This document shows, one piece after another, positions 17,641 to 32,453 of a stretch of DNA of 64,000 bases. The DNA lies in contig NZ_CP008852.1 of the NCBI RefSeq assembly GCF_000725345.1, forward strand, positions 4,642,001 through 4,706,000. Reading direction: 5' to 3'. The translations under genes and the position numbers were made by a program. Source of the DNA: Pelosinus sp. UFO1 (GTDB lineage: Bacteria > Bacillota > Negativicutes > DSM-13327). The stretch's first letter is position 1. Each line of letters opens with the position of its first letter. The notes beneath the pieces were generated by a model that had not been told where the DNA came from, made no database searches, and saw only the letters and a program-made list of their open reading frames with translations.

Positions 17641-19170
17641 TCAATAAATCCTTAGTAAGCCAACTTTAGCTTCTACTTCTCCAACCAGTCTACCGCCAGC
17701 AATTAAATCATGGAGACTCTTTATATCCGGTGCCGGTACCCGGTCTTCATCCAGATGCGATACAACATTGCGAATTGCTTGATGCGCTTTAATAGTACCA
17801 TCTCCAGGTGTAAGCGGTGCTAAGAAATCAATTCCTTGCGCAGCTGCCAGCATTTCAATAGCTATCACATTACAGACGTTATCCAAAATTTCTCTTGCTT
17901 GACGGGCAGCGATAGTCCCCATGCTAACATGGTCTTCTTGGTTCGCTGAAGTGGGAATAGAATCGGCGCTAGCCGGATGTACTAAGACTTTATTTTCCGA
18001 AACCAATGCAGCTGCGACATATTGTGTAATCATTAGACCGGAGTCAACCCCCGGAAAGGCTGTTAAAAATGGTGGTAGCTCACTTAAATGCACATCCAAC
18101 AAGCGATTGGTACGCCGTTCGGAAATATTGCCTAATTCAGCAATAGCGAGCTTAAGATAATCCATAACCAAAGCGATGGGCTGACCATGGAAATTCCCCC
18201 CCGAAATGGCTTCGCCTGTTTCCGGCATAATAAGTGGATTATCAGTCGCCGCATTAATTTCGATAGTCAATGTTTCCTCAACACGCCGCAGCGCATCCTT
18301 AGAGGCGCCATGTACTTGTGGCACACAGCGCAGTGAGTAGGCATCCTGTACCTTGTTGCAATTACTGTGAGAAGCAATGATAGCGCTATGTGCCGTTAGG
18401 TTCAGCATATTTTCGGTAGTCGCTATCTGACCGAGATGCGCTCTAACCTGGCTAATGCGCGGATCAAAAGCCGCTCTGGTACCTTTTAATGCTTCTACGC
18501 TTAATGCGGCTGCAATATCTGCTGCCTTCATCAGATTAACGGCATCATGCCAGACAATGGTGCCAACCGCTGTCATAATCTGTGTTCCGTTGATTAAAGC
18601 CAACCCTTCCTTACCACTCAATACAATTGGCTCTAAGCCGCAAGCTTTCAGCGCTTCATCACCTTTTACCAACTGCCCCTTAAGATAAGCCTCTCCTTCC
18701 CCCAGCATAACTAATACTATATGGGAAAGGGGAGCTAAATCCCCACTGGCACCAACAGATCCTTTCGCGGGAATTGCAGGACAGATTTGTTTATTAAGCA
18801 TATTCAGCAGCATTTCCACTGTCGATAACCGAATACCCGAATAACCTTTTGCCAATGAGTTGGCTCTAAGTAGCATAGCAGAGCGGACAACATCTTCGGG
18901 CAGATGTTCACCAACACCGGTAGCATGACTTAAAATCAAATTGCGCTGCAATTTAGCTCTTTCGTCTTTTGATATAAATATAGTGCTGAAATTACCAAAC
19001 CCGGTTGAAATGCCATAGACAGGCTTTTCTTCTTCCAATATTTTATCAACAATTCTTCGACTGGCAATGATTTGCTCGCGACCTTCATCACTAATTCTAA
19101 CCTCTTCATAGTTGCGCGCTACCTTTATCACATCTTCTAAAGTCAAAGAATTTCCATCTAATAAGATCAT
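17641..19170 (-). CDS. hutH: Histidine ammonia-lyase
   Basis: First step of histidine catabolism: L-histidine to urocanate plus ammonia, in the cytoplasm. At 509 aa it has the normal length. The self-cyclising MIO tripeptide A141-S142-G143 is in GSVGASGDLAPLSH, and the active-site YGISTGFGNF is at 52-61. It is the promoter-distal gene of the minus-strand hut cluster, 36 bp after the permease, with GGAGGCGA before the ATG. It lies last although it acts first; all enzymes are still on one strand and likely co-regulated. Confidence 0.97.
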   Translation of the reverse strand: MILLDGNSLTLEDVIKVARNYEEVRISDEGREQIIASRRIVDKILEEEKPVYGISTGFGNFSTIFISKDERAKLQRNLILSHATGVGEHLPEDVVRSAMLLRANSLAKGYSGIRLSTVEMLLNMLNKQICPAIPAKGSVGASGDLAPLSHIVLVMLGEGEAYLKGQLVKGDEALKACGLEPIVLSGKEGLALINGTQIMTAVGTIVWHDAVNLMKAADIAAALSVEALKGTRAAFDPRISQVRAHLGQIATTENMLNLTAHSAIIASHSNCNKVQDAYSLRCVPQVHGASKDALRRVEETLTIEINAATDNPLIMPETGEAISGGNFHGQPIALVMDYLKLAIAELGNISERRTNRLLDVHLSELPPFLTAFPGVDSGLMITQYVAAALVSENKVLVHPASADSIPTSANQEDHVSMGTIAARQAREILDNVCNVIAIEMLAAAQGIDFLAPLTPGDGTIKAHQAIRNVVSHLDEDRVPAPDIKSLHDLIAGGRLVGEVEAKVGLLRIY

Positions 19171-19206
19171 GCTAGAATCGCCTCCGCTTCTTAAAATCTT
19201 GCTGAT

Positions 19207-20643
19207 TTATTTTGCAATTTCTGCTGGCTTTTGTTCATGTTTGCTGTGAATAAAAATATAATACAGATAAATACCTGCAACAATTGGTAAGCCCGTATAA
19301 AGGACAATTTGTTGACCTTCAATAAATGCTAAACTGGCGATAATACAAATATTTAAGATAATTGCCACAATTGGCAAAACGGGATATAAGGGTGTTCGGA
19401 AGACCAAATCTTTTAAATCGCCGCCAAGTTCCAAAAAGTGTTTGCGGAAATTAATCTGGCACCAAGAAATGACAATCCAAATTAAGCAACCAGTTAAGCC
19501 GACACTAGACATCAACCATATATATACGGTGTCAGCAGCGTATTCACTAGTCAACAGTGATAATCCGGATAACACCAGCGTTAAAAATATGCCGTTAATG
19601 GGAACGCCTCCCGAATTTAGATGACCCAACCATTTTGGTGCATGCCCGTCTTTAGACATTGACCACAATAATCGTGAACAAACATAAAGCGCAGAATTAC
19701 TGGCTGATAATGCTGAAGTCAGTACAACAAAACTCATGATATCCTTTGCAATGGGAATACCGATACGACCAAATACGTATGCAAAGGGACTTTCTAATAC
19801 ACCTGCTTCTTTGTAGGGAATCGTTGCGCCTAGTACAATAATTGCCAATACATAAAACACAATGATTCTAAAAACAACACCTTTAATAACCTTAGGCACA
19901 TTTTTACCGGGATCTTCACATTCACCAGCTGCCACCCCCACCAGTTCCGATCCCTGGAAAGAATATACGACTGTAATCATAGTTAAAAACAACGCCCAAC
20001 CACCATTAGGAAATAATCCCGCTCCCGTATTAAAATTAGAAAATCCAATAGCGCCCTCGTTACCAACAGTACCAAACATCAAACCAGCACCTGCAAGTAT
20101 AAAGGCAATAATCGCAGCAACTTTGATGCCAGCAAACCAAAACTCAGTTTCACCATAAACCTTTACCGAAATCAAGTTCAAAACAGTTACCAGCACGGCA
20201 AATAATACACACCATATCCAAATAGATACATCAGGAAACCATAGAGCCATAATAATAGCTGAAGCGGTGAAATTAGCGGCAATACAAACTGCCCAATTAA
20301 TCCAATATAGCCACCCCACGGTAAAACCTACACCTGGAGAAATAAATTTCACTGCATAGCTTTGGAATGACCCTGATACTGGCATTGCCACGGCCAGCTC
20401 CCCTAAGCATAGTAAAGCCAAATACATCACCATGCCACCAAAGAGAAACGCTAGTACAGCACCAACGGGGCCGGCCTCGCTTACCACCTGTCCGGCACCC
20501 AAAAAAAGTCCGGTACCAATCGTGCCACCAATCGAAATCATCATCATATGCCTTGATTTCAGCCCACGATTAAGACCTTTTTTCTCTGGAACCAACTCTT
20601 CCACATTTACTGCCGGTTTATTGGAATTCGTCAGTTTCGTCAC
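19207..20643 (-). CDS. Amino acid permease (APC superfamily, AAT type), probable histidine importer
   Basis: A 478-aa membrane protein with 12 predicted helices. The AAT-family start pattern is clear: LKSRHMMMISIGGTIGTGLFLGAG in the first helix, then SGSFQSYA and GWLYWINWA. Relatives include ProY, HutT and GABA permeases, which are proton-coupled symporters. Position between hutH and fchA in the hut cluster argues for uptake of histidine (or urocanate); specificity is inferred from context only. It starts with GTG six bases after GGAGGG. Confidence 0.88.
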   Translation of the reverse strand: MTKLTNSNKPAVNVEELVPEKKGLNRGLKSRHMMMISIGGTIGTGLFLGAGQVVSEAGPVGAVLAFLFGGMVMYLALLCLGELAVAMPVSGSFQSYAVKFISPGVGFTVGWLYWINWAVCIAANFTASAIIMALWFPDVSIWIWCVLFAVLVTVLNLISVKVYGETEFWFAGIKVAAIIAFILAGAGLMFGTVGNEGAIGFSNFNTGAGLFPNGGWALFLTMITVVYSFQGSELVGVAAGECEDPGKNVPKVIKGVVFRIIVFYVLAIIVLGATIPYKEAGVLESPFAYVFGRIGIPIAKDIMSFVVLTSALSASNSALYVCSRLLWSMSKDGHAPKWLGHLNSGGVPINGIFLTLVLSGLSLLTSEYAADTVYIWLMSSVGLTGCLIWIVISWCQINFRKHFLELGGDLKDLVFRTPLYPVLPIVAIILNICIIASLAFIEGQQIVLYTGLPIVAGIYLYYIFIHSKHEQKPAEIAK

Positions 20644-20720
20644 AACAGTCCCTCCATTTCCTTAATTCTCTTTACTTAGGTTCTTTTTCTTGCCCGCACT
20701 AGCTTACATTAAATGCCCAT

Positions 20721-21350
20721 TTATATTTTTTCATCCACGGTCTTAGTCAATTGAGCCATTAAAGCCTCAGAGCGCACTACAATGTCCTCTATATTGCCTT
20801 TCAATTCAGCAACAAAATCTAAATCTTTAATGGAACCCAGGTTAATCCGTACATTATAGATAGCCGACCACATGGCAGCTTGCGCCATTCTCCCGGCTAC
20901 CGCTGCATCACTAGCCGCATTCGTGTTGCCAATAGAAAGCATTTTCTCCGATAATTCCAATACCTCTAAACAAACCTTGGCAACCTTAAGGGGTAGATTC
21001 GATGCACCTTTAAGTGCTTCTTGGATGGCATCGCTGCGCCGTAACTTTTCTTCTTCGATGCTCTTCGGTAGCTTATATGCGTTTATTACATTATTGAATG
21101 CCTCGGTATCCTCATCGATATACTTTTCCAGTACCGCTAAACATTTTTCTAAATCTGAAATCAGCTTTCTACTTTCTTCATGCGCAGCCTCATATTTCAC
21201 ACTACTTACCGTTAGATTCCCTACCATAATTCCCAGTGCCGCCCCGATAGCACCTGCTAAGGCAGCTGCACTCCCGCCTCCAGGTGCGGCGGAGTCTGAT
21301 TTTAGCTCAGCTAAAAAATCCGTAATGCTTTTATCGATTAGCAAATTCAT
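20721..21350 (-). CDS. fchA: Formimidoyl-THF cyclodeaminase
   Basis: Converts 5-formimino-THF to 5,10-methenyl-THF plus ammonia, feeding the one-carbon pool. It is a 209-aa helical protein of the FTCD_C family with the N-terminal signature LAELKSDSAAPGGGSAAALAGAIGAALG. In animals this domain is fused to the formiminotransferase; here the two are separate adjacent genes, as in clostridia. GGAGG almost touches the annotated ATG, and the third codon is a TTG at better spacing, so the true start may be two codons later. It lies 28 bp after ftcD. Confidence 0.93.
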   Translation of the reverse strand: MNLLIDKSITDFLAELKSDSAAPGGGSAAALAGAIGAALGIMVGNLTVSSVKYEAAHEESRKLISDLEKCLAVLEKYIDEDTEAFNNVINAYKLPKSIEEEKLRRSDAIQEALKGASNLPLKVAKVCLEVLELSEKMLSIGNTNAASDAAVAGRMAQAAMWSAIYNVRINLGSIKDLDFVAELKGNIEDIVVRSEALMAQLTKTVDEKI

Positions 21351-21378
21351 TCCTCCCAGCTTTTATCATGATTCCTAG

Positions 21379-22269
21379 TTAAATGTTTTCTTCCATAACT
21401 TGCTTACGACTGAATCCTTCCAGACGTAGGTAATAGTCCGCTGTATCAATCAGTGCCTGCATTGGTACCAATCCTACAATCTCACTGCCAATAATATTCA
21501 CACCGTAACGGGCTGCTTCATTTTTGACCGTTTCGAAAACCCGGTAGAGAGGTGTACCTTCATAATTAATCATGTTAATGGTTACCTGCGCTACATTCCG
21601 TTCTTCAATCATAATTCCCATAGCACGGCAGTATTTAAAACCGCCTTTGGCTTCCCGGATGGCATTAGCAATCTTCTTGGCTATTGCAACATCGCTGGTA
21701 CTTAAATTGATGTTATAGGCAATTAAGCATTGTCTAGCCCCCACCACTGTAGCACCAGCCTTAGGATGCATCTTTGCTGGACCATAATCAGGCTTTCTTT
21801 CAGGCTCGCTAATGGCTGCTTTTAAACCTTCATACTGTCCTTTACGAACGTCTGGCAAGTTCTTACGTTCGCTTCTTTTTGCAGCTGCTTCATACATATA
21901 CACTGGAATATCCAGCTTCTCGGCAATTTCTTGGCCTAATTCATTGGCAAGTTCAACACACTCATCAAGACTGATCCCTTTTATCGGAATAAATGGAATT
22001 ACGTCAGTAGCTCCTACCCGTGGATGCTCGCCATGATGTTGTTCCATATCAATCAATTCCGCAGCCTTCGCACAAGAGGCAAAAGCTGCCTGTTTAACGG
22101 CTGCCGGTTCACCAACAAAAGTTACTACCGATCGATTATGACTCGCATCCGATTGTACATCCAAAAGTTTGATTCCTTCTACTTTTTTAACTTCATTTAC
22201 AATGGCTTCAATGACCTCAGGACGACGTCCTTCACTAAAGTTAGGTACACATTCAACTAATTTACTCAC
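21379..22269 (-). CDS. ftcD: Glutamate formimidoyltransferase
   Basis: Moves the formimino group from N-formimidoyl-L-glutamate to tetrahydrofolate, releasing glutamate. At about 296 aa it is the free-standing transferase. The family start MSKLVECVPNFSEGRRPEVIEAI is recognisable, as is the His-bearing QHHGEHPRVGATDVIPF. I choose GTG at 22269: GGAGG lies nine bases upstream, and it reproduces the usual family N terminus, whereas the TTG at 22275 is only three bases from the ribosome site. The start overlaps the hutI stop by 8 bp (GTGAGTAA), indicating translational coupling. Confidence 0.95.
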   Translation of the reverse strand: MSKLVECVPNFSEGRRPEVIEAIVNEVKKVEGIKLLDVQSDASHNRSVVTFVGEPAAVKQAAFASCAKAAELIDMEQHHGEHPRVGATDVIPFIPIKGISLDECVELANELGQEIAEKLDIPVYMYEAAAKRSERKNLPDVRKGQYEGLKAAISEPERKPDYGPAKMHPKAGATVVGARQCLIAYNINLSTSDVAIAKKIANAIREAKGGFKYCRAMGIMIEERNVAQVTINMINYEGTPLYRVFETVKNEAARYGVNIIGSEIVGLVPMQALIDTADYYLRLEGFSRKQVMEENI

Positions 22270-23557
22270 TATCAATTACCTCCAAATTTGCCATACGTTT
22301 ATCTACAACCACTTGCCCTTTTTTAATGACCTTATCGATGATATCCATTCCAACATGATAACTCAGAAATAAATGTGATGGGTATTTGAGTATAAGAATA
22401 TCCCCCTGCTTCCCACGTTCTAAAGTCCCAATGTGATCTGCCCTCCCGACAGCAGCGGCTCCGTTCAGCGTTAACGCCGTCAGAATTTCTGCTGGCGAAA
22501 GTTTTAGCTGAATAGCCGCTAATGCGATCAACATGGGGATTGAATGACTAAAACAGCTGCCTGGATTATAGTCGGTTGCTAACGCAATTGCTCCGCCGCT
22601 ATCAATCATCGCTCTGGCTTTGGCATACTCTTCCCTCAGACAAAACGCTGTCATTGGCAATACCGTCGCTACTACACCTCGTGCAGCCATGTCAGCAATC
22701 CCCTTGTCTGATGCCTGCAACAAGTGATCAGCAGAAATAGCTCCTAGTTCCGCTGCAAGCTCAGCTCCACCAAAGGATACAATCTCATCCGCATGGATTT
22801 TTGTTTTAAGCCCCAGAGTACTTGCAGCTTGCAGAATTTTTCTTGTTTGTTTTACAGAAAATACCCCCTTCTCACAGAACACATCGCAAAACTCTGCAAT
22901 TCCCTGCTCGACTACTGCCGGCAGAACTTTTTGTATGATAAATGCCACATAATCATCTACTCGCCCTCGATACTCAGGCGGCACAGCATGTGCCCCCATA
23001 AAAGTGGGAACAACTTCGGCAGCATGACGATTGTTTAATTCTCCCATGACCTTTAATTGCCTTAGTTCCGTATCCAAATCCAGCCCATAACCACTTTTGC
23101 CTTCGACAGTAGTAACTCCCATGGCGAGCATGGCATCTAGCCGTTTTGATGCAGTCTGTAGCATTGCCTCATAGCCCATAGATTGCGTAGCTTTAACGGT
23201 ATTTAAAATACCACCGCCACGTTCTAAGATATCTAAATAAGGCGTCCCGTCTAGTCTCCAGAAAAATTCTTCGGGACGATAACCGCCGAAGACAAAATGT
23301 GTGTGGGAATCTACAAACCCAGGAATTACACTACAACCTGAAGCATCAATGATTTCCGTATTTGCCTCATTATAGACAGGCAAGTCAGAGGTTAATCCTA
23401 CCCATTCAATGATGCCTTTTTTTACTAGGATTGCTCCGTCTTCAATTTTCTCTAATTGATTCATCGCTGCACCTTTTTTTGCTGCCGTTCCAGTATTGGT
23501 AACAATTTCAGCTGCATGTTTGATTAGTAAGGATCTGCTGCCACTTTCCCTATGCAA
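22262..23557 (-). CDS. hutI: Imidazolonepropionase
   Basis: Third step of histidine degradation: hydrolyses 4-imidazolone-5-propionate to N-formimidoyl-L-glutamate. It is an amidohydrolase-fold metalloenzyme of 431 aa. Metal ligands H85 and H87 lie in GFVDSHTHFVFGG, further ligands are in KIHADEIVSFGG and SADHLLQAS, and the late Asp is in ALATDYNPGS. It starts with TTG five bases after AAGGGGGAG. It lies between hutU (33 bp upstream) and ftcD (8-bp overlap), so its product passes to enzymes encoded in the same cluster. Confidence 0.96.
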   Translation of the reverse strand: MHRESGSRSLLIKHAAEIVTNTGTAAKKGAAMNQLEKIEDGAILVKKGIIEWVGLTSDLPVYNEANTEIIDASGCSVIPGFVDSHTHFVFGGYRPEEFFWRLDGTPYLDILERGGGILNTVKATQSMGYEAMLQTASKRLDAMLAMGVTTVEGKSGYGLDLDTELRQLKVMGELNNRHAAEVVPTFMGAHAVPPEYRGRVDDYVAFIIQKVLPAVVEQGIAEFCDVFCEKGVFSVKQTRKILQAASTLGLKTKIHADEIVSFGGAELAAELGAISADHLLQASDKGIADMAARGVVATVLPMTAFCLREEYAKARAMIDSGGAIALATDYNPGSCFSHSIPMLIALAAIQLKLSPAEILTALTLNGAAAVGRADHIGTLERGKQGDILILKYPSHLFLSYHVGMDIIDKVIKKGQVVVDKRMANLEVIDSE

Positions 23558-23590: not shown

Positions 23591-25618
23591 TTAAAAAAAA
23601 GCCGCTACAACTTTATCTATCAGTTCATCTGTTGGTATATAAGGAATAGTCACATGAGCTTTCTCTTTATAATCGCGATTAAATTCAATAATTGTTTCGA
23701 TGGAATGTTCATTTCTTGCCCATGAACGCCGGGCTACGCCGCCAATAACATCCCATAGTATTGCCGATCGCAAGATTTCATCCACCCTTTTACTACCATC
23801 CAAAACCATGCCAAATCCACCATTAATAGACTTACCAATTCCAACACCGCCGCCGTTGTGCAGCGCTACTAGGCTCATCCCTCTAGCAGCATTTCCGGCG
23901 AAACATTGCACTGCCATATCTGCCATTACATTACTACCATCCCGGATGTTCGCCGTTTCACGGAAAGGTGAATCAGTACCGCTGACATCGTGATGGTCCC
24001 GCCCTAACATAACTGGACCAATCTCACCGGTACGTACCATTTCATTAAACCGTAAAGCAATCTTCTTACGACCTTCTGCATCCTGGTATAAAATTCGCGC
24101 TTGGGTTCCTACAACCAATCCATTCTTCTCAGCATCACGAATCCAAATATAATTGTCCCTGTCCTGACCACGCCGTTCAGGATTAATGCATTGCATTGCT
24201 GCCTGGTCAGTCTTATGTAAGTCCTCTGGTTTGCCGCTCAAGCAAACCCAGCGGAACGGTCCATAGCCGTAATCAAACAACTGCGGCCCCATAATGTCTT
24301 CCACATAAGAAGGAAAAATAAAGCCATCTTTTTCATCATGCCCGTTTTTAGCAATTTCTTTAACCCCGGCATCATAGATGGCCTTCATAAATGCATTGCC
24401 ATAATCAAAGAAATACGCTCCTCGCTCTACCAATTCTTTAACTAATTCAAAATGACGTTGTAAACTTTTATTGACCAATTCATGAAATTGGCTGCGATTA
24501 TTCCTCAATAGTGCAGTTCTCTCTTCAAAAGTCAGCCCTTGTGGGCAATAACCACCGTCATAGGCTGCATGGCAAGAAGTTTGGTCAGACAATAAGTCAA
24601 TATGCTTCCGATTCGCTACTGCATATTCCAGTAAATCCACTATATTGCCATGATAAGCTATGGATATCGCCTTACCCTTAGATTGATATTCCTCCGCAAT
24701 CTTAAATACCTGATCAAGATCATCGCTGCATTGGTCGACCCATCCCTGTTCCAGCCGTGTATGAATACGAGAAAAGTCTACTTCAGCGATAATACCGACT
24801 GCACCAGCAATTTCCGTTGCCTTAGGTTGTGCACCACTCATACCACCCAATCCAGAGGAAACAAATAACTTTCCATGCAAATCATCGTCAGGTGCTACGC
24901 CCAATTTAATCCTGCCTGCAGTCAATAAAGTGTTAAATGTTCCATGAACAATGCCCTGTGGGCCAATGTACATCCAACCGCCGGCTGTCATTTGTCCATA
25001 ATTAGCAACTCCCATTTGTTCAGCGACTTCCCAATCATTCTGATTATCGAACATCCCCACCATTAGTGCATTCGTAATAATTACCCTAGGCGCTTCAGGT
25101 TTTGACGGAAACAATCCCAAGGGATGACCGGACTCTATAACCAACGTTTGATCCTGAGTCATAACTTCCAAATACTTTTTAATCAACCGATACTGCATCC
25201 AGTTTTGACATACACTGCCTGTTTCTCCGTAAGTCACCATTTCGTATGGATAAAGTGCTACATTGTGATCTAGGTTATTATCAATCATGACCTGAAACGC
25301 TTTACCTTCTATGCAATCTCCTTTGTATTCATCTAAGGGTTTTCCGTAGATCCTTTCTGAAGGCATATATCGATAAGCATAAATACGCCCATATGCTTTT
25401 AATTCTTCCATGAACTCCCTTGCCAATTGACTATGTAATGCTTCTGGGACATACCGCAGAGCATTTTTTAATGCCACTTTACTTTGTTCAATTGTTAAAC
25501 GAAAACCTCTATCTGGCGCCCTACGCACCCCTTTTTCAAATATAGGTGGCTCCGGCAAAACATCGTCCAACTTAACAGTCATGGCACAAGTGATTACTGT
25601 ATTGTCAATATTCATCAT
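23591..25618 (-). CDS. hutU: Urocanate hydratase, long form
   Basis: Second step of the pathway: urocanate plus water to imidazolonepropionate, using NAD+ as an electrophilic cofactor. The protein is about 675 aa, like the animal UROC1 enzymes, rather than about 555 aa as in Pseudomonas and Bacillus. Signatures include TAGGWMYIGPQGIVHGT, SSGLGGMSGAQPKA and the catalytic region SDQTSCHAAYDGGYCPQGL. The frame extends to 25669, but AAGGGGA lies five bases before the ATG pair at 25618/25615. An internal promoter with tandem TTGACR repeats lies in the 177-bp gap upstream. Confidence 0.95.
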   Translation of the reverse strand: MMNIDNTVITCAMTVKLDDVLPEPPIFEKGVRRAPDRGFRLTIEQSKVALKNALRYVPEALHSQLAREFMEELKAYGRIYAYRYMPSERIYGKPLDEYKGDCIEGKAFQVMIDNNLDHNVALYPYEMVTYGETGSVCQNWMQYRLIKKYLEVMTQDQTLVIESGHPLGLFPSKPEAPRVIITNALMVGMFDNQNDWEVAEQMGVANYGQMTAGGWMYIGPQGIVHGTFNTLLTAGRIKLGVAPDDDLHGKLFVSSGLGGMSGAQPKATEIAGAVGIIAEVDFSRIHTRLEQGWVDQCSDDLDQVFKIAEEYQSKGKAISIAYHGNIVDLLEYAVANRKHIDLLSDQTSCHAAYDGGYCPQGLTFEERTALLRNNRSQFHELVNKSLQRHFELVKELVERGAYFFDYGNAFMKAIYDAGVKEIAKNGHDEKDGFIFPSYVEDIMGPQLFDYGYGPFRWVCLSGKPEDLHKTDQAAMQCINPERRGQDRDNYIWIRDAEKNGLVVGTQARILYQDAEGRKKIALRFNEMVRTGEIGPVMLGRDHHDVSGTDSPFRETANIRDGSNVMADMAVQCFAGNAARGMSLVALHNGGGVGIGKSINGGFGMVLDGSKRVDEILRSAILWDVIGGVARRSWARNEHSIETIIEFNRDYKEKAHVTIPYIPTDELIDKVVAAFF

Positions 25619-25698
25619 CAAATCCCCTTCCCCAAAAACTATATTCAGTAAAACAATGCAAAAAATCAATATATACTCTAAATATTTATTATATTCTG

Positions 25699-25731
25699 AT
25701 TATATTGCAACTACTGTCAAAATAACGTCAA
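25699..25731 (-). promoter_or_regulatory. hutU promoter with tandem 11-bp-spaced TTGACR repeats
   Basis: On the minus strand TTGACG (25731-25726) and TTGACA (25720-25715) start exactly 11 bp apart, and TATAAT follows at 25704-25699, ten bases after the second repeat. The block TTTGACGTTATTTTGACAGT matches the one before the PAS gene at 19 of 20 positions. The second repeat is too close to the -10 for a normal -35, so activator-type binding over the -35 region is likely. Confidence 0.65.
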
Positions 25732-25795
25732 AAACCGTTTCCTGATTTTAAAGAAAATACCTTATATCGTCTAAATAAAATTTAGAACTTCGCTT

Positions 25796-26806
25796 TCATC
25801 TTGCTAATCCTTTCAGTCGACAGAGAGTATCGACTACTGCGAAAATAATCACTTTTGCTAAGCTTGCAGTTGCTCGGTCATGATCAAATCGCGGTGACAC
25901 TTCGGCAATATCAAACCCAACTACTTTTTTTGTGCGAAGTATATGTTTTAAATACTTTAGCACTATCTCGGGATGCAACCCTAGGGGTTGTGGCGCACTT
26001 ACCCCGGGAGCAAAGGAAGAAGCAAACACATCTGCGCAAACTGTTACATAAAGATGGGGCACCAACTGCATAAAATAATCGAGTTTCTCTATAATAAGCT
26101 CATCATTGTTCGTGAAAATATCACCTGCTAATAAATAATCAACGCCTAATTGCTGAGCTGTTTTAAATAATTCAAGTGTATTGCTGCTACGTTGGATTCC
26201 CAGACAAAAATAGTGGAACATTTCCCTCCATTGGTTGGCATCATCAGCAATCTGGCTAAACATCGTCCCTGAATTTCCGCCGCCGACAAAAGGGCGAAGG
26301 TCAAAATGAGAATCAAAATTTAAGATACCCAATTCACATTTGCCATCGTTTTGCCGTAGAAAATCTGCTTGCCCCCGAAAGTGTCCTAAGGCGGTTTCAT
26401 GCCCGCCGCCAATAACAAGAGGAAACAGTCCGGCCTGCCTGAGACGAAAAACAGCTTGTTCCAGCGCCACCTGGCTTTTCATTAATTCTCCATCTGTGCA
26501 GGTAATATTCCCTGCATCAAACAAAGATACCTCAGAAGAAAATGAACACGGTAAGTTGGAAAGTTCACTGCGAATTCCCTCGGGTCCCGAGGAAGCTCCC
26601 TTGCGTCCATTGTTCCGTATAATACCTTCGTCACAGCAAAAACCTAGCAAAGCAAATCCCATTTTACCCGTAAATTCACCGATTGGCTGCCTTAAATCCA
26701 ATGGTTTTATCCATTGGTGCCACCGGAAGGCATCATAATTTTCTTTACTGTCAATCCGTCCTCGCCATATCGTAAAATCTGCTACTTCATATCGATTCTG
26801 AAACAT
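25796..26806 (-). CDS. hutG: Formimidoylglutamase
   Basis: Manganese enzyme of the arginase/agmatinase family that hydrolyses N-formimidoyl-L-glutamate to glutamate plus formamide. It has 336 aa. Family motifs are VIGGGHETALGH, NFDSHFDLRP (for DAHFD) and VCADVFASSFAPGVSAP. In the last motif the first Asp of the arginase DxD pair is a Cys; I believe some HutG relatives share this but cannot check. It lies 32 bp after fhs and 177 bp before hutU. Its presence next to ftcD-fchA gives the cell two exits from the same intermediate. Confidence 0.88.
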   Translation of the reverse strand: MFQNRYEVADFTIWRGRIDSKENYDAFRWHQWIKPLDLRQPIGEFTGKMGFALLGFCCDEGIIRNNGRKGASSGPEGIRSELSNLPCSFSSEVSLFDAGNITCTDGELMKSQVALEQAVFRLRQAGLFPLVIGGGHETALGHFRGQADFLRQNDGKCELGILNFDSHFDLRPFVGGGNSGTMFSQIADDANQWREMFHYFCLGIQRSSNTLELFKTAQQLGVDYLLAGDIFTNNDELIIEKLDYFMQLVPHLYVTVCADVFASSFAPGVSAPQPLGLHPEIVLKYLKHILRTKKVVGFDIAEVSPRFDHDRATASLAKVIIFAVVDTLCRLKGLAR

Positions 26807-26838
26807 AAAATCCTCCAGCTAGTCATACATTATGTTTT

Positions 26839-28506
26839 TTAAAATAATCCACTAATTTTACCGTTATTATCTATATCCATTATTTCCGCTGCTGGTTTTT
26901 TAGGAAGCCCAGGCATGGTCATAATATCTCCGGTAATAACCACTAAAAATCCAGCGCCAGCAGCTATACGTATTTCTCTGACCATCAATGTAAATGTTTC
27001 AGGACGACCAGTTTTTGTTGCATCATCAGACAAAGAATATTGGGTTTTAGCAATACAAATTGGCGTTTTATCTAAGCCTATCCCAGTTAACTCCTGAATG
27101 CTTTTTTCAGCTGCCTTGCTATAATTAACAGCATCAGCACCATAAATTTCTTTGGCGATCACACTAATTTTCTCTTTAACAGGTAACGTTTCATCATACA
27201 AAAATCTAACAGCCTTTGGCTGTTTAAACATGTCAAGAAGCTGTTCTGCAAGTTCCATACCCCCTGCACCACCATCGGCCCATACTTTTGAAAGGGTTAC
27301 GGTGACACCAAGCGTTTTGCACTGCTCCCTGACAAAGGCCAATTCTGCTTCTGTATCATTGGGAAAAACATTAATAGCAACGACTGTAGGCAAATTAAAT
27401 TTATGCATGTTTTCTATATGTTTTTTAAGGTTTTCCATCCCCTGTTCTAGTGCTTGCTGATTTTCTTTGGTAAGCTCAGTTTTGCTAACGCCACCATGTG
27501 CCTTAAGTGCCCTTATCGTTGCAACCAGCACTACCGCATCCGGCATAAACCCTGCAAAGCGACATTTAATATCAATGAACTTTTCTGCCCCTAGATCAGC
27601 ACCAAAACCAGCCTCGGTAATCAATATATCTGATAACTTTAAAGCAAACTTCGATGCCATCACACTATTGCAACCATGTGCGATATTGGCAAATGGTCCT
27701 CCATGTACAAAAGCCGGTGTATTTTCTAAAGTCTGCACCAAGTTAGGTTTAATTGCATCTTTGAATAAGAGTGTTAATGCACCAGTAACTTTTAAATCAG
27801 CCGCCGTAACCGGTTGATTGTTATAGGTATAGCCTACAATGATCTTGCCGATTCGCTGCTTCATATCATCTAGATCTTTCGCCAAACACAAAATAGCCAT
27901 TAGTTCTGATGCAACGGTAATGTCAAAGCCGCTTTCCCGTGGTACGCCGTCAGTCTTTCCGCCAAGCCCAAGTACAATATGGCGTAATGCCCGATCGTTA
28001 AGATCAATTACCCTTCTCCATGTCACGCGACGCGGATCAATCCCCAGTACATTGCCTTGTTGGATGTGATTATCAATGATCGCTGACAGCAAATTATGGG
28101 CTGACGTCACGGCATGTATATCGCCAGTAAAGTGTAAGTTAATATCCTCCATAGGAACAATTTGTGCATAACCACCACCAGCAGCACCGCCCTTCATACC
28201 AAAGCACGGTCCCAATGATGGTTCACGTAAGGCAATCATCGCTTTTTTTCCTAATCTGCGAAAAGCATCGCCCAATCCAACTGTTGTTGTCGTTTTCCCC
28301 TCACCAGCCGCCGTCGGGTTAATCGCACTTACAAGTACTAATTTACCATTGGGACGTTGTTTGATTTTATCCCATACTGACAGGGATATTTTAGCCTTAT
28401 ACTTCCCATACTGCTCAATGTCATCTTCCGTTAACCCAAGACCTGCCGCGATTTGGATAATTGGCTGCATTTTGGACTCCTGGGCAATCTCCACATCACT
28501 TTTCAT
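26839..28506 (-). CDS. fhs: Formate-tetrahydrofolate ligase
   Basis: Interconverts formate + ATP + THF and 10-formyl-THF + ADP + Pi. In the hut cluster it most likely runs towards formate and ATP, conserving energy from the formimino carbon delivered by FtcD-FchA; in acetogenic metabolism it runs the other way. It is 555 aa, full length, with the P-loop region [17 protein letters not shown] near residues 65-82 and [20 protein letters not shown] following. Start: GAGG is spaced 8 bp from the ATG at 28506; the in-frame GTG at 28515 overlaps that ribosome site. A conversion of methenyl-THF to formyl-THF (FchA/FolD) must be encoded elsewhere. Confidence 0.95.
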
Positions 28507-28527
28507 TACCTTCACCTCTTCAGCATT

Positions 28528-28866
28528 TTATTTTCTTATATAATGGGGTATTTCAGCGGGTATTACCATAGATAGTTCTACCAAACCTGCATATTGCCCA
28601 TCTTGATACCAAGGAGTTTGATAAACTAGCTTTTTTACACCGTTTTTTTCAATTGTATAGCTATTGGCAGTTTTAGTTTCGATAATTTCGGCAATTTTCT
28701 TGTATGCATGTTCAGAATGAACGTCTTTTATGTTTTTTCCAATTAAGTCCTTACCGCCATACTTCTCGAATGTTTTGACGGATTGATCATTCATTTCTAT
28801 GATTTTACCAATTTTATCTGTAACAGTGACTGCAAAGGGTAGTTCCTTTACCCATCCATTAGACAT
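28528..28866 (-). CDS. PAS-domain protein heading the hut operon
   Basis: A 112-aa single PAS domain (FAVTVTDKIGKIIEMNDQSVKTFEKYGGKDLIGKN at about 11-45) with no kinase, HTH or transmembrane part. It is first in the hut transcript, 21 bp before fhs, and sits behind the tandem-repeat promoter. PAS domains bind small ligands or redox cofactors; a role as ligand-sensing partner of the large regulator or of a pathway enzyme is possible but not shown. A strong GGAGGGTC precedes its ATG, so it should be well translated. Confidence 0.8.
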   Translation of the reverse strand: MSNGWVKELPFAVTVTDKIGKIIEMNDQSVKTFEKYGGKDLIGKNIKDVHSEHAYKKIAEIIETKTANSYTIEKNGVKKLVYQTPWYQDGQYAGLVELSMVIPAEIPHYIRK

Positions 28867-28909
28867 TTTCTTGACCCTCCTTCATAAACAATTTTGTATT
28901 TAAATTAAT

Positions 28910-28951
28910 TTTATAATCAGCACTGTCAAAATATCGTCAAATCGCTTTCAA
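28910..28951 (-). promoter_or_regulatory. hut operon promoter with three 11-bp-spaced TTGAnn repeats
   Basis: On the minus strand TTGAAA (from 28951), TTGACG (from 28940) and TTGACA (from 28929) start at exact 11-bp steps, and TATAAA (28915-28910) follows eight bases after the last. Direct repeats at 11-bp steps with the last one 8 bp from the -10 is the published layout of SARP-family operators. The regulator gene next door encodes a SARP-type protein, so this is its probable binding site. Confidence 0.65.
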
Positions 28952-29058: not shown

Positions 29059-29120
29059 AAAAAATAGGGGCTGGAGATGTTACAAAATTGCCTTTCATTT
29101 TGTAACATCCCCAGCCCCTA
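29059..29120 (-). terminator. Terminator of the SARP-type regulator gene
   Basis: A very long stem (29065-29087 with 29097-29120, one unpaired base) is followed on the minus strand by a T6 run. It insulates the regulator gene from the hut operon promoter just downstream. Confidence 0.88.
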
Positions 29121-29171: not shown

Positions 29172-32100
29172 TTATATAGAATCAGCAGCTTGCCGCTTAC
29201 AATTACCCTGTACTGTATATTCAGCTATCATCTCCTCAAGAGATGTAATCTCAGCCGTCCTGCCAGTTTTTTTAAAAGCTTTTCGGGCCCTCATATAATA
29301 TTCCGCCGCAGGCAAAGTCAACGAATCTTTAAATACTTCCGCTATCGCTTTTTCCTGCTCCATTAGCAGCCTTATTTCTGCTTGCGTGCGAAAAATTACT
29401 CCACTTTGGTATTGATCATTATACTTCTCCAGAAAATCTTTTGCCTGCTCTAGGTACTGTTTTGCTTCGTGAGGGCGGTGCAGCCTCACTGCAATCAATG
29501 CCAATATACAGTGAAGTGTGCTATAACCTCGCAAACACCAATAGCCCTTTTCATCGCCAAACCCATCTGCGACCGCCAAAGCATCCATAAGGTATGCACT
29601 AGCTTTTCCATAGTCATTTAGTTGAAAGGCTGTACAACCGGCATTAATATAAAACAAAGCCACACCCTCGCTAACATTTTTGCGTCCGGCTATTCTGGCT
29701 GCCTGCTCATAGTGGTACAGTGCTGCTTTATAATCAAGACTTTCTCGCCGCAAATCACCAATATAATTATTGGCTGCTGCAATGGTGAAAACATAGAAAC
29801 TATTGTGAACAGCCAGCTTTTTTAACAACGTTAGCGATTCTCGGTAATACTTCTCAGCCTGCTGATACTGGCATTTGAGCGCAGAGGCCACCCCTAGAAA
29901 TCGTAATGCGGTCGCCTTTTTCTCTGAAAGTTCGTCCTGTTCGGTCAAATGCAATAACTTAATGGCAAAGTTTTCTATTAGATGTGCTTTCCGCGTCTGA
30001 ATACCACAATAAATAATTTGCTGATAGCCCTTGATTTGATACTCTCTGAGGTTTTTCTTTGATGCCAGCCGTAGCATCTGATGCATTAATTTCAATCCCG
30101 CTAAGTGTTGCCCTCTCCAGATATGATATCGCCCAGCCATCTCCCAATAAGCAACTTGATAAGTGTCCAATCGCTCATCTGCTATTGTTTTAGACAATAA
30201 TACATCTAATAATTCCCTTATCTTACCGAAATACGTAGTAATCTGACTCCTACTTTCCCGAAAATCAATACCCGTTGGATAGTAATGATTAAGTTCCGGA
30301 AACATCTCATATTGGGGGCAATAATATCTTTCAACCATTTTAATCGTATAATCTAAGATTTTCAGCTTTTCATCCGCGTTTGTGTAATGGTATAAAATAT
30401 GTTCATAAACATCTTTGCTTTGCATACCACATTGCAATTGTTGTTCTAAATAAACTGCCGATCGCTTATGCAAAATTCGTTGCCTTATTGTCGACATCTC
30501 ACTATACACATAATCACGAATTTTTAAGTTATAAAATTTATAACTAGAATCACCCTTGTCTGAATCAAACTCTTCCATTAGCAGTTGCTTTTGTTGTAAC
30601 TCTTCAATTGCTTCAACTAGGTCAAATTCATTGATTGCTGAAACGGCAAGCAGCACCTCATAATTGGCATTATCAAAAAATACGGAAGCTATTTCAAGAA
30701 CTTTTCTACCATTTTCAGAAACATTAGCCGTCCTTTCCTTTAATACGCTATTTAACTTGATTGAACAGTGACTGATATCTTTGCCGGCTGCAATCAAATT
30801 CAGACATTCAATTAGAAATAATGCATTGCCGCCTGTATATTCGTATAACCTGGATTGCATCTCCTTGCCAATGCTAGGTATGCGTATTTTTGATAAGCTC
30901 ATCACGTCTTGTGCACTGAAACGTCTAATGTTCATCTTTTCCAGCATACCGTTACGTTCAAACTCTTCTATTGATTTATCAATTTGCGGTAAATATTCCG
31001 TATGGCAAGTCGCAATACAAATAATATTGGTATGTAGGCGTAATAACTGCCATAACAACAACCACCCTTGCTTATCCATCCAATGAATGTCTTCAATCAA
31101 AATAATAGTTTTTTTCAAACTAGAAGCCTTAACCAATACTTCGCACATGATCTCTTCAACCATTGTTGTACTGAATTTATAGGTGTCCACTGTTATTTTT
31201 GTCTGTAAAAGCTTTTCACCTATTTTTGCTGTCGGAAAAGCATACGCAATAACTTGCTTCCAAAGGGTTGGCAAATCAATCTCGGCTTGCATTAAAACCG
31301 CTATAACTTGTAAAAAAATATTATTCCATGCTTTATAAGTATACTCAAATTCAGCTTGATAGCATTGGGTACGAAAAACATTACAATTTACTGTTGAAAT
31401 CGGTGAAAGCAGTTGCTCAACAATTGCAGATTTACCAACGCCCTGATCTCCCTGTAACAGTAGCATTCGTTTGTTCTGCTCCTTTTGGAACGATCTATCC
31501 ATCAATAGGCGCAATTGCCCCAATTCTTTTTCGCGACCATAAAACTTTGGGTTGCTAAACACCTCTTCCTGAGTGACCCTACTCGTCCTATCCTTAATCC
31601 GTTTATAGATTTCCTGTGTCCGAGCACTGGGTAACAAACCTAAATCCTGTGCCATTTTCCGTTCCAACTCTTGATAGATTTCCACTACTTTATGAGAATC
31701 TTCTTTTTCATAGATCTTCATTAGTAGCCGATAAGCTCCTTCGTTATATGCATCTAGTCTAATCAAGTACTTTAGGTATCGTTTCATAGACGTATAATCT
31801 TTAGAGTTCATTTTCTTTACGATCAATTTAGTCAAACAGCTTATGCTATCCTTTCGAAATCGTTCACGAAATTCAGTAACCCACTCATCAAAATGGATTG
31901 CATCTTTACAATAAAATCCTTCTAGAAACTCACCTGTATTTTTTTCTAAGAATTTAGCAATATTGTTTACTGTTAATAACTCCAATTCCGTCATTACAAC
32001 AACTTCTGGATTTAATACAATCTTTGCTCGTGATGAAGTAATCAATAAATCCACCGAAAACATTTTTTTTAGTAAATAGACTGTATTGCGTAAATTCCTC

Positions 32101-32279
32101 TTAGCGGCACTATCTCTCATATCTCCCCAAAAGAGCGCTGCCAGACTATCACGTGTAGCCTCACCTATAACCAAAAGATAGTACAACAAAGCTTCCATCT
32201 TAGCAAATGGAAACACCATCTTTTGATCATTCCAATATACTGCTGGCTTTCCAAACAACTCCGCACGTAATTTAGTCAC
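29172..32279 (-). CDS. SARP/BTAD-AAA-TPR transcriptional regulator, probable hut activator
   Basis: A 1035-aa regulator. The N-terminal OmpR-like winged helix (about 1-85: KMEALLYYLLVIGEATRDSLAALFW, then AKRNLRNTVYLLKKMF) is followed by a bacterial transcriptional activation domain (about 110-230, ending DLGLLPSARTQEIYKRI). An AAA/STAND ATPase (about 245-480) has Walker A GDQGVGKSA and Walker B IILIEDIHWMD, and helical TPR-like repeats run from about 640 to the end. This architecture is known from AfsR-like activators, which bind tandem 11-bp repeats. The frame opens at 32333, but AAGGAG is 8 bp before GTG at 32279. It lies upstream of the hut operon, same strand; hut control is inferred from position and the repeat sites. 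Confidence 0.85.
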   Translation of the reverse strand: MTKLRAELFGKPAVYWNDQKMVFPFAKMEALLYYLLVIGEATRDSLAALFWGDMRDSAAKRNLRNTVYLLKKMFSVDLLITSSRAKIVLNPEVVVMTELELLTVNNIAKFLEKNTGEFLEGFYCKDAIHFDEWVTEFRERFRKDSISCLTKLIVKKMNSKDYTSMKRYLKYLIRLDAYNEGAYRLLMKIYEKEDSHKVVEIYQELERKMAQDLGLLPSARTQEIYKRIKDRTSRVTQEEVFSNPKFYGREKELGQLRLLMDRSFQKEQNKRMLLLQGDQGVGKSAIVEQLLSPISTVNCNVFRTQCYQAEFEYTYKAWNNIFLQVIAVLMQAEIDLPTLWKQVIAYAFPTAKIGEKLLQTKITVDTYKFSTTMVEEIMCEVLVKASSLKKTIILIEDIHWMDKQGWLLLWQLLRLHTNIICIATCHTEYLPQIDKSIEEFERNGMLEKMNIRRFSAQDVMSLSKIRIPSIGKEMQSRLYEYTGGNALFLIECLNLIAAGKDISHCSIKLNSVLKERTANVSENGRKVLEIASVFFDNANYEVLLAVSAINEFDLVEAIEELQQKQLLMEEFDSDKGDSSYKFYNLKIRDYVYSEMSTIRQRILHKRSAVYLEQQLQCGMQSKDVYEHILYHYTNADEKLKILDYTIKMVERYYCPQYEMFPELNHYYPTGIDFRESRSQITTYFGKIRELLDVLLSKTIADERLDTYQVAYWEMAGRYHIWRGQHLAGLKLMHQMLRLASKKNLREYQIKGYQQIIYCGIQTRKAHLIENFAIKLLHLTEQDELSEKKATALRFLGVASALKCQYQQAEKYYRESLTLLKKLAVHNSFYVFTIAAANNYIGDLRRESLDYKAALYHYEQAARIAGRKNVSEGVALFYINAGCTAFQLNDYGKASAYLMDALAVADGFGDEKGYWCLRGYSTLHCILALIAVRLHRPHEAKQYLEQAKDFLEKYNDQYQSGVIFRTQAEIRLLMEQEKAIAEVFKDSLTLPAAEYYMRARKAFKKTGRTAEITSLEEMIAEYTVQGNCKRQAADSI

Positions 32280-32453
32280 ACGCTCATCTCCTTGGAAAAA
32301 AATGTTATATATAGCTATTTTATACTGACTCATCTCACTATTGCAAATTATTATCTTGGTAATCTCTTACTACAATCAACTGATACGTATGTATGCTGTA
32401 CTCAAGCTTAAAGTAGGGTATTAGAAATACTTTACTATTCATCAATTATGCAG

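Follow-up and report, generated by a model that had tools for sequence, protein, structure and literature searches.

The hut locus and its promoter repeats

The window, a 64-kb stretch of the Pelosinus sp. UFO1 genome, carries genes for histidine utilization (hut) and a large regulator gene (Table 1). Along the minus strand the order is regulator, hairpin, PAS-fhs-hutG, and then hutU-hutI-ftcD-cyclodeaminase-permease-hutH. The permease was assigned by Pfam, and the ftcD-type formimidoyltransferase, the cyclodeaminase, and hutH from sequence and conserved gene order; Pfam and TIGR models bear out the contents named in the initial annotation (hutU, PAS, fhs, hutG, and a BTAD-AAA-TPR regulator). 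The regulator open reading frame opens at 32333, and translation probably starts at 32279, where the homologues begin. A terminator-like hairpin separates the regulator from the PAS operon, which suggests that the two are not cotranscribed, and an Rfam search of the region returned no known RNA element. The fhs gene of this operon is cut to a short C-terminal stretch in two Pelosinus relatives (G004 and G002), with PAS and hutG still present (L080:8645-8752 and L084:9204-9284, in hutU orientation).

Table 1. Genes and predicted regulatory features of the hut region (window coordinates)
Feature	Position	Strand	Basis or remark
Large SARP-type regulator gene	29172..32279	-	Pfam, PDB profile search, alignment
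Terminator-like hairpin (strong), between regulator and PAS operon	29069..29116	-	20 pairs, T-rich tail
TTGAAA, possible third repeat	28946..28951	-	kept only in closest relative
Predicted operator, PAS-fhs-hutG promoter (two TTGAC direct repeats, 11-bp step)	28925..28940	-	kept in relatives
-10 box TAAAAT, PAS-fhs-hutG	28908..28913	-	11 nt after second TTGAC
PAS-domain protein (112 aa), first gene of second transcript	28528..28866	-	Pfam
fhs, formate-tetrahydrofolate ligase	26839..28515	-	Pfam / family-model searches
hutG, formimidoylglutamase	25796..26806	-	TIGR01227 above cut-off
Predicted operator, hutU promoter (two TTGAC direct repeats, 11-bp step)	25716..25731	-	kept in all Pelosinus-type relatives
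-10 box TATAAT, hutU	25699..25704	-	11 nt after second TTGAC
hutU, urocanate hydratase	23591..25669	-	TIGR01228 above cut-off
hutI, imidazolonepropionase	22262..23557	-	TIGR01224 above cut-off
ftcD-type formimidoyltransferase, cyclodeaminase, amino-acid permease, hutH; downstream of hutI, same orientation	17641..22275	-	

The initial annotation had described, upstream of both hutU and PAS-fhs-hutG, near-identical blocks of TTGAC repeats spaced by exactly 11 bp, and their positions were verified. The repeats start at 25731 and 25720 in the hutU block (TTGACGTTATTTTGAC) and at 28940 and 28929 in the PAS block (TTGACGATATTTTGAC), all on the minus strand. The TATAAT and TATAAA reported after the last repeats lie at 25704-25699 and 28915-28910, respectively, the latter overlapping a TAAAAT at 28913-28908, and either could be the -10 box of the PAS promoter. 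The further TTGAAA that had been listed as a third repeat is indeed present at 28951, 11 bp from the next repeat of the PAS block; it was rejected as a general feature, being kept only in the closest relative (G006) and not conserved in the other Pelosinus-type genomes.

Matches to TTGAC-N6-TTGAC with at most one mismatch number 12 in the window, compared with 3.9 expected (maximum 9 in 100 shuffles), and the 5.1-Mb genome has 10 exact matches versus 4 for a reversed control; the eight exact matches other than the hut sites are scattered. Genome-wide, good matches to the longer block TTTTGACGNTNTTTTGACAG number just two (0 and 1 mismatch), both at the hut promoters; all matches elsewhere need three mismatches, like the control. 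This bears on the proposal that PhoB/PhoP or another OmpR-type response regulator controls these promoters and that the SARP-type gene is a mere neighbor. Direct repeats of the TTAACA/TTGACA type at 11 bp are also bound by PhoB/PhoP-class regulators, the PhoP boxes of Bacillus being TTAACA-like repeats with a step of about 11 bp. At the Streptomyces afsS promoter, the AfsR and PhoP sites overlap (PMC10972967). However, a regulator of that class is weakened as an alternative by a genome whose two best sites are both at hut promoters, rather than at several phosphate-related ones.

The regulator and its linkage to hut genes

The BTAD, AAA, and TPR domains that had been ascribed to the neighboring regulator are confirmed by Pfam: PF03704 (BTAD), AAA_16 (central ATPase), and TPR_12 (C-terminal TPR) all score above cut-off, and PF03704 is matched at an E value of ≤1 by all 34 aligned relatives. 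The regulator is the only BTAD protein in the genome. Its profile has AfsR as the best PDB hit (E value, 3.5e-6), mainly through the BTAD, which it also has in common with mycobacterial EmbR (PDB 2FEZ; E value, 8e-5). EmbR is not known to have an AAA-TPR half, and its targets are others. Pfam finds no match in the N-terminal DNA-binding region of the window protein or of its relatives, the profile match to the AfsR winged helix is colinear but weak (4.6 bits), and tblastn alignments with BTAD regulators from other phyla begin at residues 1 to 8. An AlphaFold model of the N-terminal domain from seven close sequences reached a pLDDT of 47, too low for use. The N-terminal region may be an OmpR-type winged helix of the SARP kind, an assignment based on weak, though colinear, similarity.

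The search for the regulator and for hutU covered 121 relatives and was then extended to 253 genomes of the class. An intact regulator homologue is present in 36 of the 253, and hutU occurs in 31 of these 36 versus 24 of the 217 others (Fisher, 1e-19); the co-occurrence was counted by hand, and both this test and the Mantel test given below ignore phylogeny, so that among related genomes their P values overstate independence. In most genomes the regulator adjoins hut genes. In Sporomusa-like genomes it immediately precedes hutU; in one distant family (24 to 26% identity) it follows hutI, and in another its neighbors are hutH and a YuiF-type antiporter. The five regulator-positive genomes without hutU all belong to one genus, in which we note an intact-looking operator and -10 box facing a stretch without an obvious gene (L124:6005 and L169:5383), perhaps a relic of lost hut genes. 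In a second hut-type cluster of another genome (G118; L125:8711-13027), the regulator is interrupted by a 449-amino-acid open reading frame that also occurs elsewhere in the locus and is probably a mobile element.

A profile of the N-terminal half was also searched against 399 genomes of the phylum, and the matches split into a subfamily with E values of <1e-73, found in seven genomes outside the class, and weaker BTAD proteins with E values of >1e-38. Subfamily homologues lie inside hut clusters in all seven genomes, with operators in six and up to six per cluster (G600); in the seventh (G524) the regulator is within the hut cluster and no site reaches the threshold. None of the five weaker BTAD proteins examined is in a recognizable hut cluster. 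Acetoanaerobium noterae (Clostridia), found independently via a plasmid record, has hutH-hutU together with the regulator and a site upstream of hutH.

Distribution and geometry of the sites

Among regulator-positive genomes of the class, TTGAC pairs with an 11-bp step (at least 9 of 10 bases, within 350 bp of hutU) precede hutU at 20 of 28 loci, compared with none of 12 loci in regulator-negative genomes; control steps of 7 to 22 other than 11 give 0 to 5 loci each. At most of the eight remaining positive loci, the site precedes the regulator (TCGACGTTCCATCGACG-N9-TACAAT in G095) or a hut gene other than hutU (hutG in G024, hutD in one family), or takes the degenerate form TTnGACGTTTTTTnGATG. 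The hutU block is nearly unchanged in relatives (TTTTGACGATATTTTGACAGT-N7-8-TATAATCAGAATATAA), while the adjacent intergenic sequence drifts. In several genomes the PAS block has changed to TTGACGATAGTTAGACA, with the step and -10 distance kept. In a genome with two hutU genes (G223), the regulator-linked copy has a site and the other does not, and a genome without the regulator (G232) has no site, though its genus-mates have one. A site is kept in G230, where the regulator is reduced to a remnant, and G233 has a perfect-looking hutU operator (L162:8354, reverse orientation); a search of the G233 genome for a BTAD protein found none. The repeats are conserved in related hut promoters across several families and outside the class, tracking the regulator, as the initial annotation had asked to be checked. 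In one family (L109, L110, L112, and L113), a second conserved element, TTGATTCTCTTTTGACGGAAT...GAAAACGTC, lies about 180 bp upstream of hutU and has an 11-bp step without a -10 box at the usual place.

A TAnnnT box lies 9 to 11 nt after the second TTGAC at 57 of 64 intergenic sites in regulator-positive loci and at none of three in regulator-negative loci, counted on all intergenic hits of a position weight matrix (PWM) trained on sites of the class; shuffles of a hand-listed site set place a -10 at that distance in 2.6 of 44. Independent tests of the PWM are confined to the out-of-class genomes, including A. noterae, where 19 of 22 sites have the box at 9 to 11 nt, 17 of them at exactly 10 nt (2.9 expected from shuffles). 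The distance is mostly 10 or 11 nt from TTGAC, equivalent to 8 to 9 bp after the heptamer TTGACRN. As a published rule, SARP sites have repeats spaced by 11 or 22 bp, and the distance from the 3' repeat to the -10 is 8 bp, an arrangement that replaces the -35 contact (PMC10936776); binding of PimR needs two repeats (PMC5930380). The 11-bp step and -10 distance agree with this layout, as initially proposed.

The same geometry was weighed against two other readings. The repeats might be ordinary sigma-70 -35 boxes (TTGACA) duplicated by chance, as a CAGAAT 16 nt past the second TTGACA of hutU would allow, but we rejected this as extremely unlikely since the spacing is wrong: the hexamers are about 10 and 21 nt from the conserved -10 box, not 16 to 18. 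Moreover, the tandem form and the 10- to 11-nt distance are kept across families, TAnnnT at a normal -35 distance is almost absent, these promoters have no usable -35, and the repeats are missing from genomes without the regulator. Alternatively, the SARP-type protein could bind these sites as a repressor that is relieved by an inducer, and an operator overlapping the promoter is compatible with repression. We consider this very unlikely, however, as promoters without a -35 depend on assistance, the -10 lies at a fixed distance like that seen in activator sites, and the characterized SARPs are activators (PMC10936776, PMC10972967).

The operator is not exclusive to hut, as paralogues adjoin other genes with similar sites. 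In Sporomusa-like genomes, additional regulator copies adjoin an NCS1 permease or an aconitase-X/symporter cluster, with sites there too. Full-length identity to the Pelosinus regulator is 51 to 52% for the NCS1-linked copies, compared with 45 to 46% for the hut-linked ones, and the sites of the NCS1-linked copies have the GACAG ending of Pelosinus sites in place of GACGC. The operator sequence thus seems to go with the regulator rather than with its target gene. Identity in the binding domain correlates with identity in the operator (Mantel rho, 0.45; 0 of 5,000 permutations). The joint divergence of site and binding domain, and the way in which sites accompany the SARP-type gene across families and beyond the class, argue further against a PhoB/PhoP-type regulator, which we regard as very unlikely.

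Several other sites were also noted. One genome (G042; L087:5685-6362) has a small N-terminal-only paralogue, a 275-amino-acid open frame with the DNA-binding region and BTAD, followed just 3' by a motif hit and then by a predicted sodium:solute symporter-like gene. In another (G119; L118:8234-9186), a gene with an MCP signaling domain is preceded by a paralogue-linked site that is almost the same as the Pelosinus operator. A very strong TTTTGACGTTTTTTTGACG site (score, 28.6) lies beside a BTAD regulator in G358 (L215:7998), and because it is outside a recognizable hut cluster, such operators may reach beyond hut.

Predicted control of histidine catabolism

We propose, with a probability of about 0.85, that the gene at 29172-32279 codes for a pathway-specific activator of histidine catabolism of the large-SARP (AfsR) type acting through the tandem repeats. 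This reading, put forward in the initial annotation, is supported by the hut linkage, the sites that track the regulator, the -10 geometry, and the out-of-class genomes, all lines of comparative sequence evidence, and a predicted hut activator conserved in the Negativicutes and beyond is their best explanation. The protein would have an N-terminal DNA-binding region and BTAD, followed by an AAA/STAND ATPase and then TPRs. At each hut promoter, the two repeats would be occupied by two adjacent protomers that stand in for the missing -35 and recruit sigma/RNA polymerase, like AfsR at afsS. The ATPase-TPR half may keep the protein off until a histidine-pathway signal is sensed, with histidine and urocanate as candidates, and the hutU-hutI-ftcD-cyclodeaminase-permease-hutH and PAS-fhs-hutG transcripts of the window would be switched on jointly.

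The closest parallel is AfsR of Streptomyces coelicolor (PDB 8HVR, 8JKE, and 8K60), which has the same SARP-ATPase-TPR order in about 1,000 amino acids and two 11-bp direct repeats over the -35 region with the 3' repeat about 8 bp from the -10. In contrast to AfsR, which is concerned with antibiotic regulation, the Pelosinus regulator is in the Bacillota and is predicted to serve histidine catabolism, its repeat is TTGACG rather than CGTTYATCG, and its -10 box is strong and TATAAT-like rather than poor. Histidine utilization is also controlled by HutC (GntR), HutP (an RNA-binding antiterminator), and CbrAB/NtrC, which belong to unrelated protein families and use unrelated mechanisms. HisR, a TrpR-family protein of Gram-positives, regulates the biosynthesis and transport of histidine (PMC9413887). 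In the open-license papers searched, we found no dedicated activator and operator for the hut genes of the Negativicutes and the other Bacillota concerned.

The hut genes of the Negativicutes and some other Bacillota would thus gain a predicted dedicated activator and operator, and SARPs, studied as antibiotic activators, would be extended into primary catabolism. There the ATPase-TPR half should respond to a simple known metabolite, so that the question of what large SARPs sense becomes directly testable. We lean toward the broader view that a whole Bacillota branch of large SARP/STAND regulators is devoted to catabolism, with hut as the default and the Sporomusa-like paralogues moved to the NCS1 permease and the aconitase-X/symporter cluster. 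If this is true, AfsR-type replacement of the -35 would be used by a catabolic branch and hence would not be an actinobacterial antibiotic specialty.
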